A DNA stretch of 64,000 nt, from NCBI RefSeq assembly GCF_000813965.1, contig NZ_JWLI01000006.1:434001-498000 (forward strand), written 5' to 3'. The translations under genes were made by a program, and so were the position numbers. Below are positions 5,122 to 33,129 of the stretch, one piece after another. The DNA comes from Leisingera sp. ANG-M7 (lineage in GTDB: Bacteria > Pseudomonadota > Alphaproteobacteria > Rhodobacterales > Rhodobacteraceae). The notes beneath the pieces were generated by a model. It did no database searches. It saw only the letters and a list, made by a program, of their open reading frames with translations, and was not told where the DNA came from. Numbering within the stretch: the first letter of the stretch is position 1; each line of letters begins with the position of its first letter.

Positions 5122-6672
5122 ATGAACGACCAAGCCTCCCCTGCCCGCGCCACCCGCAGCGGCGGGCGCAATGCGCGCCGTGCTGCCCGTGCTGCCGCTC
5201 TGCCGGATCATCTGCGCCCGGTCCGCCCCGGCATGGAATCCACCGCCCTGAAGATGCTAAGCCAAGCGGACATGGAAAAGATCCACGAGGCCGCCCTCAC
5301 CGCGCTGGAAGAGATCGGCCTTGCTGACGCCCCGCAGAGCGGGATCGATTACCTGACTGCCGCAGGCTGCACACTGGGCGACGACGGCCGCATCCGCTTC
5401 CCCCGCGCCCTGGTGGAAGACACAATCGCCAAGGCAAACCGCTCCGTCACCCTATTCAGCCGCGACGGCAAAAACGATCTGGAACTGTCGGGCGGCCGTG
5501 TCCACTACGGCACCGCGGGCGCGGCCGTCAGTGTGGTCGATGTGCAAGGCAGAAACTACCGTGACTCCACCGTGCAGGACCTACATGACGCGGCCCGCAT
5601 CTGCGATCAGCTGGACAACATCCACTTTGTCCAGCGCCCCATGGTCTGCCGCGACATTCCCGATAACCTCGAGATGGATTTGAACTCCATCTACGCCACC
5701 TGTGCCGGAACCACCAAACATGTCGGCGTCTCTTTCACTGAACCTGGGTATGTGAAAAACGGGCTTGAGCTGCTGCACTTGATTGCGGGCGGCGAAGACA
5801 AATGGCGCGAGCGCCCGTTTGTTTCCAACTCCAACTGTTTCGTGGTGCCGCCGATGAAGTTTGCCACGGAATCCTGTGAAGTGATGGAGGAATGCATCAA
5901 GGGCGGCATGCCTGTGCTTCTACTGTCAGCAGGCATGGCCGGCGCCACAGCCCCTTCGACCATTGCCGGGGCCATCACCCAGGCGGTTGCCGAATGCCTG
6001 GCTGGACTGGTTTATGTCAACGCCGTAAAGCCCGGTGCCCCTGCGATTTTTGGCACTTGGCCCTTCGGCCTCGACTTGCGCACCGGTGCTATGTCCGTTG
6101 GCTCCGGGGAACAAGCCCTGCTGACCACCGGCTGCGCCCAGATGCACAAGTTCTACAACCTGCCCGGCGGTGCTGCAGCCGGGGCATCAGATTCCAAGCT
6201 GCCGGACATGCAGGCTGGCTGGGAGCAGATGTGTTCCGCCGTCATGGCCGGCCTTTCTGGCCTCAACATGGTTTATGAGGCCGCCGGCATGCACGCCTCT
6301 CTGCTTGGTTTCTGCCTGGAATCGCTGATCCTGGACAATGACCTGCTGGGCCAGGCGCAGCGCTGTGTCCGCGGCATTGAGGTGAACGACGAGACCCTTG
6401 CGCTCGATCAGATGCGTGCCACCTGCCTGGGCGGGCCTGGCCATTACCTGGGTACCGATCAGACCCTTGGGCGGATGCAGGTCGACTATGTCTACCCGGA
6501 TCTGGGCGACCGCACCTCTCCCAAGGAATGGGCGGAGCGCGACAAGCCCGATCTGATCGAAAAGGCAGTCGCCAAAAAGGAAAAGATCCTGTCCGAACGC
6601 GCCTCAGCCCGGTTTGACGCGGAAACCGACATGGCAATCCGGCAGAACTTCAATATCCATCTGCCTGCATGA
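5122..6672 (+). CDS. Trimethylamine methyltransferase (MttB) family protein, non-pyrrolysine type
   Basis: 516 residues of the MttB superfamily. These are TIM-barrel methyltransferases that move a methyl group from a quaternary or tertiary amine to a corrinoid protein. A basic N-terminal tail (about 30 residues) precedes the conserved core. The core includes the Gly/Ala-rich stretch around APSTIAGAITQAVAECLAG and the GTWPFGLDLRTG and GGPGHYLGTDQT segments. No in-frame stop interrupts it, so it is a non-pyrrolysine homologue. Characterised members of that class include glycine betaine methyltransferase (MtgB). No corrinoid protein or MtvA-type partner is adjacent. Substrate is therefore unproven; a methylated amine such as glycine betaine is the reasonable guess. 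AAAGG precedes the ATG by about 9 bases. Confidence 0.82.
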   Translation: MNDQASPARATRSGGRNARRAARAAALPDHLRPVRPGMESTALKMLSQADMEKIHEAALTALEEIGLADAPQSGIDYLTAAGCTLGDDGRIRFPRALVEDTIAKANRSVTLFSRDGKNDLELSGGRVHYGTAGAAVSVVDVQGRNYRDSTVQDLHDAARICDQLDNIHFVQRPMVCRDIPDNLEMDLNSIYATCAGTTKHVGVSFTEPGYVKNGLELLHLIAGGEDKWRERPFVSNSNCFVVPPMKFATESCEVMEECIKGGMPVLLLSAGMAGATAPSTIAGAITQAVAECLAGLVYVNAVKPGAPAIFGTWPFGLDLRTGAMSVGSGEQALLTTGCAQMHKFYNLPGGAAAGASDSKLPDMQAGWEQMCSAVMAGLSGLNMVYEAAGMHASLLGFCLESLILDNDLLGQAQRCVRGIEVNDETLALDQMRATCLGGPGHYLGTDQTLGRMQVDYVYPDLGDRTSPKEWAERDKPDLIEKAVAKKEKILSERASARFDAETDMAIRQNFNIHLPA

Positions 6673-30446: not shown

Positions 30447-31991
30447 TCAGCGGCCTTTGAACAAACTGCCAAGAATACCGCGGACAATCCGGCGGCCAGT
30501 GGTGCCCTTCAGTTCCTTGATAACCGCCTCTGACATGGCGGAGGTAAAACTGTCTTTCTTCTTGTAAGAGCGTGACGTTGACCTGCTCACCCGCGATCCG
30601 GAATAGCGGCGCGCGGCATTGAATTCCCGCGCCGTCGGTTCTGGAGCAGCTTCAGCAGTTTCCTCGGCAGCTTCAGCCGCCTGGGCCGCGGCCTGCGCCC
30701 GCTGTGCCAGGATTTCAAAGGCGGATCTGCGGTCCATCGGGGTGTCGTATTTACCGGCCATGTCAGAAGCCTTAAGCATCTTCTTACGTTCACCCGCCGA
30801 GATCGGCCCCAGCTGCGTGCTGGGCGGACGGATCAATGTCCGCTCCACAATGCCAGGCACACCCTTCTTCTGCAGCATCGAGGTGACTGCTTCGCCAACC
30901 CCTACTTCGCGGATGGCATCTTCGGTCGAAAACCGCGGGTTCTCCCGGTAGGTCTCGGCGGCCAGCCGCAGGTTCTTTCGGTCCTTGGCGGTGAACGCGC
31001 GCAACGCGTGCTGGATGCGGTTGCCAAGCTGCCCCAGAATGTCCTCTGGCACATCTGCGGGGTTTTGGGTGATGAAATAGATTCCGACCCCCTTGGATCG
31101 GATCAGCCGCGCAACCTGCTCCACCTTGTCGATCAGCGCCTTGGGGGCATCATCGAAAAGAAGATGCGCCTCGTCGAAAAAGAACACCAGCCGGGGCTTG
31201 TCCGGGTCACCCACTTCCGGCAGTTCCTCAAACAGCTCGCTCAGGAGCCACAGAAGGAAAGTGGAATACAGGCCCGGTGCCGCCATCAGCTTGTCCGCGG
31301 CCAGGATATTGACCATTCCCCTGCCTGCCGCATCGCAACGCATCAGGTCGCTGAGCGCCAGCGCCGGTTCGCCGAACAGGCCCGCACCGCCCTGGTTTTC
31401 CAGCACGAGCAAACGGCGCTGAATGGCGCCGATTGAGGAGGTGGAGACGTTGCCGTAGCGAAGCGACAACTGGCTACGGTTTTCACCGATCCAGACCAGA
31501 AGCGCCTGCAGATCTTTCAAATCCAGAAGCGGCAGTCCTTCTTCATCTGCAAGCCTGAAAGCAATGTTCAGGGTGCCCTCCTGCGCCTCGCTCAGCTCCA
31601 GCAGGCGTGCCAGCAGCAGCGGCCCCATCTCCGCAACTGTTGTGCGCACCGGATGCCCTTGCTCACCGTAGAGATCCCAGAAGGTGACGGGACAAGGATG
31701 GTAGCCGTAACCTTCAAACCCGATCCTGGCGGCGCGCTCCAGGAAAGGTTCGTGCAGCTTGTGATCCGGGGATCCAGCCAGTGCCAGCCCGGACAGATCA
31801 CCCTTCACATCAGAAAGGATCACCGGGACGCCGGCATTGGAAAACCCTTCCGCGAGGATTTGCAGAGTGACTGTCTTGCCGGTTCCGGTTGCGCCCGCGA
31901 TCAGGCCATGACGGTTGGCGTATTTCAGATCCAGCCCCTGCTGTTCGCCGTACCCTTCACCTCCGCCGCCAAGAAATACTCTGTCTGACAT
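30447..31991 (-). CDS. HerA-like helicase / DUF853 ATPase (YjgR type)
   Basis: 514 residues. Walker A GATGTGKT (33-40) and Walker B LVFFFDEAHLL (about residues 263-273) sit in a HerA/FtsK-like RecA fold. Conserved segments are LSDVKGDLSGLA, GYHPCPVTFWDLYGEQGHPVRTTV, IYFITQNPADVPEDILGQLGNRIQHALRAFTAKD. An Ala/Glu-rich stretch (about 420-455) precedes a basic C-terminal tail. YjgR-family proteins are predicted DNA or nucleic-acid translocases of unknown role. There is no nurA-like neighbour, so this is not a classical HerA-NurA repair pair. Confidence 0.85.
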   Translation of the reverse strand: MSDRVFLGGGGEGYGEQQGLDLKYANRHGLIAGATGTGKTVTLQILAEGFSNAGVPVILSDVKGDLSGLALAGSPDHKLHEPFLERAARIGFEGYGYHPCPVTFWDLYGEQGHPVRTTVAEMGPLLLARLLELSEAQEGTLNIAFRLADEEGLPLLDLKDLQALLVWIGENRSQLSLRYGNVSTSSIGAIQRRLLVLENQGGAGLFGEPALALSDLMRCDAAGRGMVNILAADKLMAAPGLYSTFLLWLLSELFEELPEVGDPDKPRLVFFFDEAHLLFDDAPKALIDKVEQVARLIRSKGVGIYFITQNPADVPEDILGQLGNRIQHALRAFTAKDRKNLRLAAETYRENPRFSTEDAIREVGVGEAVTSMLQKKGVPGIVERTLIRPPSTQLGPISAGERKKMLKASDMAGKYDTPMDRRSAFEILAQRAQAAAQAAEAAEETAEAAPEPTAREFNAARRYSGSRVSRSTSRSYKKKDSFTSAMSEAVIKELKGTTGRRIVRGILGSLFKGR

Positions 31992-32015
31992 GCCTGCCCC
32001 GCCTTATCTTTTTCC

Positions 32016-32024
32016 TGTGGATAA
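32016..32024. other. Single perfect DnaA-box word in the herA-like promoter
   Basis: TGTGGATAA is the reverse complement of TTATCCACA, the consensus DnaA box. It lies 25 bases upstream of the ATPase start codon. A lone box is not an origin; it could be chance or DnaA regulation of this promoter. Confidence 0.3.
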
Positions 32025-32115
32025 CAATACAAAGTTAACTTTTGGATGCGATAGTCAATCTTGCCCGCCCCTGCAAAAGCGGTTGCCGTGGCGGACATTT
32101 CCTCCCTGTCAGACT

Positions 32116-32142
32116 GGCCGTGCCTCGTGCACGGCCTTCTTT
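32116..32142 (+). terminator. Terminator-like hairpin without an upstream gene
   Basis: GGCCGTGC (32116-32123) pairs with GCACGGCC (32129-32136) around CTCGT and is followed by TTCTTTTT. No plus-strand protein gene precedes it in this intergenic region, so it may end a short RNA starting near 32000. Confidence 0.6.
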
Positions 32143-32212
32143 TTGGGCAATGTTTGCCTGTAAAACGGGCATATTCCTCTGACCGCTCTGCCCTAAGACT
32201 TCAATTTTCATG

Positions 32213-32237
32213 AAATCCGGCCCGTCAGGATTTTTTT
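32213..32237 (+). terminator. Weak hairpin with a long T-tract
   Basis: AAATCC and GGATTT flank a 9-base loop, with the T-tract extending to eight T. The stem is short, so confidence is low; it lies between two better hairpins. Confidence 0.3.
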
Positions 32238-32249
32238 TGAACTTGGATG

Positions 32250-32278
32250 TTGACCGATGGCCAGCCCTTTCGTAACGT
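32250..32278 (+). promoter_or_regulatory. Possible sigma-70 promoter for a small RNA
   Basis: TTGACC (32250-32255) and TAACGT (32273-32278) are separated by exactly 17 bases. Transcription from about 32285 would reach the terminator at 32327-32355. Confidence 0.4.
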
Positions 32279-32284
32279 CCTACG

Positions 32285-32355
32285 CAATAACTAAGTCGGC
32301 CAGTCCGACGGGGAGATGCAAACACGAAAAAGGGGGCCAAACGGTTCCCTTTTTT
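32285..32355 (+). ncRNA. Candidate small RNA (about 70 nt)
   Basis: Between the promoter-like site at 32250-32278 and a strong intrinsic terminator there is room for an RNA of about 70 nt. Inside is a small hairpin, GTCGG/CCGAC around CCAGT, then an unpaired purine-rich GGGGAGATG segment, then the terminator stem. I cannot match it to a named sRNA family, and a 5' leader of the IalB-like gene is an alternative reading. Confidence 0.35.
32327..32355 (+). terminator. Strong intrinsic terminator upstream of the IalB-like gene
   Basis: AAAAAGGGGGCC (32327-32338) pairs with GGTTCCCTTTTT (32343-32354), including two G-U pairs, around a 4-base loop, with T continuing after. The A/T flanks make it usable on both strands. 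Confidence 0.7.
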
Positions 32356-32487
32356 GCATTTATTCAGAGACTTCCGCAGTTGAGCTGTTGTGCGCGGAAT
32401 TCCCCGCTAAACCCTAGTAATAGGCCTGACACCACCCGGGCGGCGTGATAAACGCGTTGCCAGCGTCTTTAGAAAAATGAGGCATTC

Positions 32488-33129
32488 ATGTTGAAGTCCC
32501 TGACCCCGATCACGCTTGCCGCGGTGCTGGCTATGACCGCGCCGCTGGCGGCGCAGGAAACCACCGCCGAGGAGACTGACACCACAGAACAGGCCGCCGG
32601 GGCGGAAACCGCAGAGCAACAGCCCTCAGATCTCCTCCTTGATTACGGCGAAGTTGTTGAGAACGAAACACAAGTCGGACAACGGTACATAAAAGAAGAA
32701 CATGGTGACTGGAATCTTGCTTGTATCAAGGCTGAAGTTGGCCATGACCCCTGCTCGTTAATGCAAGTCCTGACTGGACCAAACGGAAACCCGATTGCCG
32801 AGTTTTCGTTGTTTCGTTTAACTGAAAATGGCGGACAAGCTGTGGCTGGTGCGACTCTTATCGTTCCGCTGGAAGTTCACTTGCCAAGGGGAGTTTCACT
32901 CTCCGTCGACGGTGCGCCAAGTAAGCGATACAACTTTCGGCTATGCTCACAGGTGGGCTGCCTGACACAAATCGCTTTGACCGACGGCGATATCAAGGCT
33001 TTTAAAAACGGCAAGGAAGCAATCGTGACAATGACCGCTGAGCCATACTTGGACCGCATTGTAGAACTGAAAATGTCGCTGAAAGGCTTTACCGCAGGCT
33101 ATGATGTGGTCGACGTCGTCAAGCAGTAA
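32488..33129 (+). CDS. Invasion-associated locus B (IalB) family protein
   Basis: 213 residues. Signal peptide 1-22 (ending PLAAQ), then a Thr/Glu/Ala-rich acidic linker (about 23-50) and an IalB domain (about 65-205). Family features: the HGDWNLACIK opening, four Cys arranged as two likely disulfides (CIKAEVGHDPC and LCSQVGC), and the VSLSVDGAP and FRLCSQVGCLTQIALTD segments. IalB proteins are periplasmic or envelope proteins first linked to Bartonella invasion. In free-living roseobacters they have no host role that I know of. The 3' part is less GC-rich than neighbours. Confidence 0.85.
   Translation: MLKSLTPITLAAVLAMTAPLAAQETTAEETDTTEQAAGAETAEQQPSDLLLDYGEVVENETQVGQRYIKEEHGDWNLACIKAEVGHDPCSLMQVLTGPNGNPIAEFSLFRLTENGGQAVAGATLIVPLEVHLPRGVSLSVDGAPSKRYNFRLCSQVGCLTQIALTDGDIKAFKNGKEAIVTMTAEPYLDRIVELKMSLKGFTAGYDVVDVVKQ

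Follow-up and report, generated by a model that had tools for sequence, protein, structure and literature searches.

The intergenic region at positions 31992-32487 of the window (the whole stretch of 64,000 nucleotides that was analysed, from a Leisingera-like genome) contains, by comparative evidence, two small RNA (sRNA) genes in tandem, denoted B and A in this order. The two are probably transcribed separately, and the downstream one, A, is likely to be an RNA sponge for SorX, SorY and alpha-r8-like sRNAs that is encoded beside one of them, both predictions coming from sequence comparison. A first-pass annotation of this DNA had proposed an sRNA locus here. That proposal is supported by promoter-like motifs, core sequences and terminators with compensating changes that recur across the family, and because of these conserved motifs and cores, the covarying terminators and the family-wide spread, we read A and B as sRNA genes. 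The comparative evidence supports such behavior for both RNAs, and their expression is predicted.

The intergenic position given in the annotation is borne out. On one side lies a minus-strand gene for a HerA-like ATPase (Pfam HerA_C, 30447-31991, 726.8 bits) and on the other, a plus-strand gene for an IalB-family protein, ialB (32488-33129, 119.5 bits). This neighborhood is widespread: at 106 of the 125 loci that remained for counting once three duplicates and 19 same-genus copies had been left out, both genes stand beside A and are oriented as in the window, with ialB downstream of A in 114 and HerA upstream in 114. Ahead of ialB, there is a separate promoter-like motif, TGACA-N13-GTGATA (32427-32450, plus strand); the pattern TGACA-N13-17-GTGNTA, found at 41 of 118 loci compared with 0.15 expected in shuffles, resembles a conserved ialB promoter. 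The terminator scan alone proves little because it lists five terminator-like sites in 2.5 kb of both strands compared with 3.0 expected (sd 1.6). It is conservation that raises the locus above chance: the TTGAC of the A promoter is present at 169 of 170 loci and the full -35/-10 pattern at 148, against 0.25 expected in shuffles. A plasmid collection yielded no match. Elsewhere in the window, at 6184-6283 (plus strand), there is a match to the Rfam family PYLIS_3, the pyrrolysine insertion sequence of mttB (42.6 bits, gathering score 38), which sits inside an open reading frame at 5122-6672. Since this 516-aa frame is uninterrupted, the resemblance to PYLIS_3 probably comes from homology, in an MttB-like gene of the non-pyrrolysine kind.

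The predicted gene A spans approximately 32285-32362 on the plus strand, with both ends placed from its promoter and terminator. The promoter TTGACC-N17-TAACGT lies at 32250-32278, exactly as first described, and is conserved among the loci, where the commonest -10 boxes are TAGCGT (90) and TAACGT (28); a general sigma-70 scan with a threshold of 9/12 matches did not list it. The core, AAGUCGGCCAGUCCGACGGGGAG (32293-32315, plus strand), conserved as AAGUCGGCCAGUCCGACRGGGAG, combines a GUCGG/CCGAC hairpin with RGGGAG and is antisense to B, SorX and SorY; the exposed stretch of the earlier description, GGGGAGATG, is found at 32310-32318. The terminator, a hairpin with a T-rich tail (32325-32356, plus strand), is identified by both the scan and covariation, and the folding of 32295-32364 is better than that of shuffled sequences (z -3.8). 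In an alignment of 51 sequences, the A hairpin and terminator are 93.6% paired with 53 double-change cells, a value that none of 500 shuffles reached, and eight pairs show a double change, for which 23 of 500 shuffles did as well. The covariation is confined to the terminator. Of the five pairs in the first hairpin, four are invariant, which partly reflects selection, since most of the rows were picked by the core pattern. Three loci (L049, L096 and L102) carry an extra hairpin-like sequence in the linker from the core to the terminator. No Rfam family matched A, the best being sraA (20.7 bits, gathering score 56, E 1.1). The available excerpts of the open-licence literature mention neither an RNA that matches A nor a sponge for SorX or SorY, and those of PMC5089854, PMC3688512, PMC7866481 and PMC8625941 name no RNA at the A/B locus.

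The entire region, used as a query, has matches in 33 of 61 genomes, including all 21 of the same genus and 12 of 16 other family members, and none in 24 genomes of other families. Outside the genus, the matches resolve into two blocks, the first terminator (B) and 32285-32316 (A). The pattern AAGTCGGCCNGTCCGAYRGGGAG occurs at no fewer than 119 named loci, which are labeled mostly as Rhodobacteraceae, Paracoccaceae or genera of these groups, with some labels at the order, class or phylum level and one as Maritalea mobilis. A covariance search across the family, suggested in the first-pass annotation, was performed with a model denoted R1 and detected A in 256 of the 295 genomes sampled from the family, corresponding to 255 of 294 genera, as well as in 139 of 149 genomes of an order sample made up entirely of members of this family, and in 52 of 56 genomes of one further genus. 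Among 289 genomes of the class, R1 produced eight matches, four within the same family and four weak ones that consist of a terminator without the core. These counts can miss copies: one genome scored as lacking A (G021) has a core-bearing copy (L321) with a poor terminator, which adjoins a B-like sequence. By R1, A is lacking in all six sampled genomes of the genus g48 (G067, G606, G622, G628, G655 and G672), and a search for SorX in G067 gave nothing above the cut-off.

The predicted gene B occupies approximately 32060-32146 on the plus strand; its start is placed from a promoter-like motif, and the gene is supported by near-matches in Rfam and by conservation in the family. The motif, ATAC-N4-TTAAC-N8-GCGATAGT (32027-32055, plus strand), generalizes to ATAC-N3-6-TTAA[CTG]-N8-13-G[CG][CG]A[TGA], which 94 of the 142 B-bearing loci contain (shuffles would give 0.05) and which mostly starts 71-76 nt upstream of the core. 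From its 5' end, B comprises a hairpin, then UUUCCUCCCU, an anti-Shine-Dalgarno stretch, and finally a terminator. Its core, UUUCCUCCCUGUCAGACUGGCC (32098-32119, plus strand), joins this anti-Shine-Dalgarno 10-mer to a stretch antisense to A; the CCTCCC segment that had been attributed to a second RNA is located within it, at 32101-32106. The terminator (32116-32144, plus strand), detected by the scan and by covariation, comprises a hairpin at 32116-32136 followed by TTCTTTTT. The 10-mer, at 32098-32107, is unpaired in the fold of 32020-32146 and partly paired in that of 32080-32146, so that its single-stranded state is a prediction. Folding of this first terminator region (z -1.4 for 32080-32146 and -1.5 for 32020-32146) is less clear than that of the second. 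The 44 nt that precede the 10-mer, where the upstream hairpin lies, fold below letter shuffles (mean z -2.6, with z < -1 in 85% of the 142 loci), and the sequence there is variable.

Across 39 aligned B sequences, pairing in the terminator stem amounts to 96.3%, and double changes occur in 28 cells; none of 500 shuffles is as high by either measure. Six pairs show a double change, which 8 of 500 shuffles match. The segment UCCUCCCUGU is invariant in all 39 rows, which were picked for a near-match to it. The pattern CTCCCTGT-N1-4-ACTGGCCG is found in 96 of 149 family genomes, a count that includes copies of the SorX type as well as the strand opposite A, compared with 3 of 149 for a reversed-pattern control. 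A script placed B beside A at 97 of 125 loci; some of the other 28 show B on inspection by eye, and two end at a contig edge.

By its sequence, B is predicted to be a SorX/mmgR-like sRNA that falls just under the Rfam cut-offs. It scores 40.9 bits (E 1.6e-8) with the SorX model RF02784, below the gathering score of 46.6, and 36.9 bits (E 5.1e-6) with the suhB/mmgR model RF00519, below the gathering score of 41; since neither gathering score is reached, we assign B to neither family. With SorY (RF02651), it scores 23.1 bits, far below the gathering score of 111. B shares with SorX and SorY of Rhodobacter sphaeroides a core of the CUCCCUGU-N-ACU-GGCC kind and a terminator but, unlike SorX, which lies elsewhere in both genomes, B has a locus of its own. 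The available text of PMC12559287 describes the alpha-r8 RNAs as having the 10-mer UUUCCUCCCU, an upstream hairpin and a terminator, and B likewise combines a 5' hairpin, this 10-mer and a Rho-independent terminator. It differs from suhB/mmgR in its sub-threshold score and in that its neighbors are HerA_C and IalB rather than the N-formylglutamate amidohydrolase gene, a linkage that the same text presents as usual, not universal.

The first-pass annotation counted three plus-strand hairpin/T-tract terminators, of which those at 32116-32136 and 32325-32356 are recovered by the scan. The third, at about 32213-32237 (plus strand), fails as a terminator: the scan did not list it, its folding is no better than that of shuffles (z -0.46), and several same-genus relatives keep the T-tract without the stem. 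Conservation of the hairpins among relatives, whose absence the annotation had named as one way to refute its reading, thus holds for two hairpins and not for this one, which may instead be A/T-rich sequence preceding the promoter of A.

A point absent from the annotation is that GGGGAG of one RNA complements CUCCC of the other. The segment GGCCAGUCCGACGGGGAG of the A core is complementary to CUCCCUGUCAGACUGGCC of B along 18 nt, with one mismatch and one G-U pair. In this genome, the predicted duplexes of the A core reach -38.5 kcal/mol with B, -44.8 with SorX and -40.0 with SorY; in R. sphaeroides, the respective values are -36.0, -39.3 and -39.3 kcal/mol. For targets with their letters shuffled, the means lie between -22.6 and -25.0 (sd about 3), and none of 300 shuffles for each target reaches the observed value. 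A scan of the 64-kb window in 40-nt stretches, with the strand opposite A itself left out, gave a single stretch that pairs better than B (53160, plus strand, -39.8 kcal/mol); it lies opposite a likely coding strand, and we took it as a chance match. With SorY, the predicted pairing extends over the full 23 bases of the core; the AAG at its start is thereby included, which may explain its conservation. CcsR1, a CUCCC-rich RNA of R. sphaeroides, was rejected as a target at -24.9 kcal/mol, the shuffle level of the other targets, with whose shuffles, not its own, it was compared. The R. sphaeroides sequence C4 contains, at 691715-692397 (minus strand), eight copies of TCCTCCCTG, several about 114 nt apart, near the coordinate 694,720 given for UpsM in the accessible part of PMC6238624, and we read this as the CcsR1-4 region; the one copy tested is no strong partner of A.

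In this genome, the SorX model gives 87.5 bits at the SorX locus and 54.6 bits at a second SorX-family match, which was scored by this model only. This second match is predicted to be SorY because both CATACCTCCCTGTTGGACTT and the stem of the terminator are common to it and R. sphaeroides SorY. We took genome G095 as R. sphaeroides 2.4.1 because its SorX-family matches coincide with the published coordinates of SorX (2,598,224) and SorY (1,632,642) in the portion of PMC6238624 available. There, A (1,426,533-1,426,600, minus strand) and B (about 1,426,720) are adjacent, a gene like ialB follows A, and the gene before B is a different one from that found here. Identity of A or B with SorX, SorY, PcrZ, UpsM or RSs1624 of R. 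sphaeroides was dismissed given that the coordinates in that portion of PMC6238624 differ, and identity of A with StsR, given that the StsR probe, as it appears in the accessible part of PMC11354728, is by eye not complementary to R. sphaeroides A. In a hand count over 61 family genomes that ignores ancestry, SorX reaches its Rfam cut-off in 43 of the 50 with A versus 2 of the 11 without it; mmgR exceeds its cut-off in 8 of the 61, six of which lack A by R1, again with ancestry ignored.

If A and B pair, changes in one might be compensated in the other. As a counterweight to the core-pattern bias, low-scoring A genes and one further genus were added to the data. Among 161 loci, same-genus copies included, an A loop with AAG goes together with UUG or UUA in B at 14 of 21 loci, compared with 3 of 140 otherwise (Fisher p of 1e-12, ancestry ignored). 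Cognate duplexes average -34.4 versus -33.8 for non-cognate ones in 114 distinct pairs, and none of 5000 permutations is as low. At four positions, the 63 distinct A-B pairs obtained from 155 of 195 loci with a standard-length B (40 with indels or odd anchors were excluded) show double changes, which add up to 20 cells; re-pairing gave 8.9 +/- 2.0, and none of 1000 re-pairings came as high. Paired cells make up 90.8% versus 89.0% after re-pairing. Sixteen of the 20 cells fall at one position and are mostly of the AAG/UUG type; at the other positions, C-G becomes U-A in L381, in L283, and in L317 together with L355. The re-pairing test is weakened by shared ancestry. The A and B loop types that exchange cluster on the tree; on a HerA tree built by a quick method (121 rows with both traits), the A type changes seven times and the B type nine times, with only two independent pairs on supported branches, too few for significance, and we therefore claim none for this exchange. 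One A-B position is non-standard in 46 of the 63 distinct pairs (C-A 37, C-U 8, C-C 1) and a second in 15; one A loop base varies among A, G, C and U while B stays U.

The imperfect pairing with B and the retention of A at loci where B was not found adjacent count against a sponge. The latter, together with a core that looks conserved beyond the need of pairing with a single partner, partly by row choice, favors an ordinary trans-acting sRNA that would act on mRNAs via RGGGAG and its loop, its complementarity to B, SorX and SorY being a by-product or cross-talk. We consider this unlikely: complementarity of 18-23 nt to three related sRNAs in two genera, as well as compensating changes in trans, is hard to obtain as a by-product, and a G-rich core would be a poor match for ribosome-binding sites, which are themselves G-rich.

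We favor the sponge because of the complementarity of A to B, SorX and SorY and the precedent of CrfA in Caulobacter. The CUCCC of these three RNAs (within UUUCCUCCCU in B) would presumably block ribosome-binding sites of mRNAs. A, roughly 75 nt long and transcribed from its own promoter, would mask this stretch: its CCAGU loop and RGGGAG tail would capture GACUGG and CUCCCU of the target sRNA, and its hairpin would open into a duplex of about 18-23 bp, such that the target would be masked, and probably degraded, and its mRNAs freed. We infer the expression of A and B, the duplex in the cell, a role of Hfq or RNase, the direction of action (A on the others) and the decay.

In Caulobacter crescentus, as described in the accessible sections of PMC12559287, CrfA is a sponge that binds SisA-D by base pairing at the same 10-mer; with Hfq assisting, it reduces the amount of SisA and counteracts regulation by SisA. 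A resembles this system in being a G/A-rich RNA whose predicted targets are several sibling alpha-r8-type sRNAs, which it would bind at their UUUCCUCCCU 10-mer. It differs from CrfA in its tandem arrangement with a predicted target and in a predicted duplex of 18-23 bp that extends past the 10-mer; moreover, R1 detects no core-bearing relative outside the family in 289 class genomes. By analogy, then, A probably works in the manner of CrfA on SisA; no homology is claimed, and A is assigned to no CrfA family. Sponges of alpha-r8 RNAs being already known, what would be new is a sponge candidate in tandem with its target, with longer predicted pairing and a family-wide distribution. The antagonism between sRNAs predicted for A would also have a parallel within its own bacterial family, where, according to the available part of PMC8307010, one sRNA targets another in the StsR-UpsM pair of R. 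sphaeroides.

Because the pairing is symmetric, sequence alone gives no direction, and the roles could be reversed, with A as the regulator and B, SorX and SorY as decoys that titrate it. We regard this as improbable. In the accessible passages of PMC8307010, SorX is reported to act on the mRNA of a spermidine transporter and SorY on that of a malate transporter, and in those of PMC12559287, it is the C-rich RNA of Caulobacter that regulates mRNAs, with the G/A-rich one serving as the sponge.

Still less probable is a cis-acting leader of ialB, in which the hairpins would be attenuators or a riboswitch rather than parts of sRNA genes. The placement of ialB after A, in the same orientation and less than 700 nt away, at 114 of 125 loci is compatible with such a leader, but B and A have promoter-like motifs of their own and two terminators with T-tracts, the further motif precedes ialB at 41 of 118 loci, the ialB match starts at a variable distance from A (mostly about 170-560 nt), and an ATG near GGGAG is present at just 23 of 125 loci. 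A leader peptide or an ialB attenuator was rejected for A in view of the separate motifs and the lack of a conserved ATG. Finally, an inverted repeat that acts in DNA as paired regulator sites, or is a recombination remnant, would agree with two inverted copies mostly about 95-235 bp apart, but is the least probable reading of all, given that each copy occupies the same place ahead of a terminator, the terminator stems covary as RNA, and B-type copies stand alone in SorX and the SorY-like RNA at other loci.

A broader version of the sponge hypothesis, which we put forward tentatively and hold to be rather less probable than its negation, is that A is the family-wide master sponge of Rhodobacteraceae, acting on all sRNAs of the SorX, SorY and alpha-r8 types at once. 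The sRNA and its antisense partner would form a tandem module with co-evolving cores, and A, which would have arisen separately from CrfA, would thereby set a threshold for the regulation of oxidative stress and nutrient uptake across the family. If A does act as a sponge, these bacteria would have a level of regulation that has so far gone unrecognized. A would act on both SorX and SorY, stress sRNAs already known from the group, whose respective target mRNAs are those of potA and takP; in R. sphaeroides 2.4.1, all four RNAs, A, B, SorX and SorY, are at known coordinates. Together with CrfA, A would suggest that alpha-r8-type sRNAs repeatedly gain dedicated sponges and, present in 256 of 295 sampled genomes, it would be a core regulator of a large group of marine and photosynthetic bacteria.
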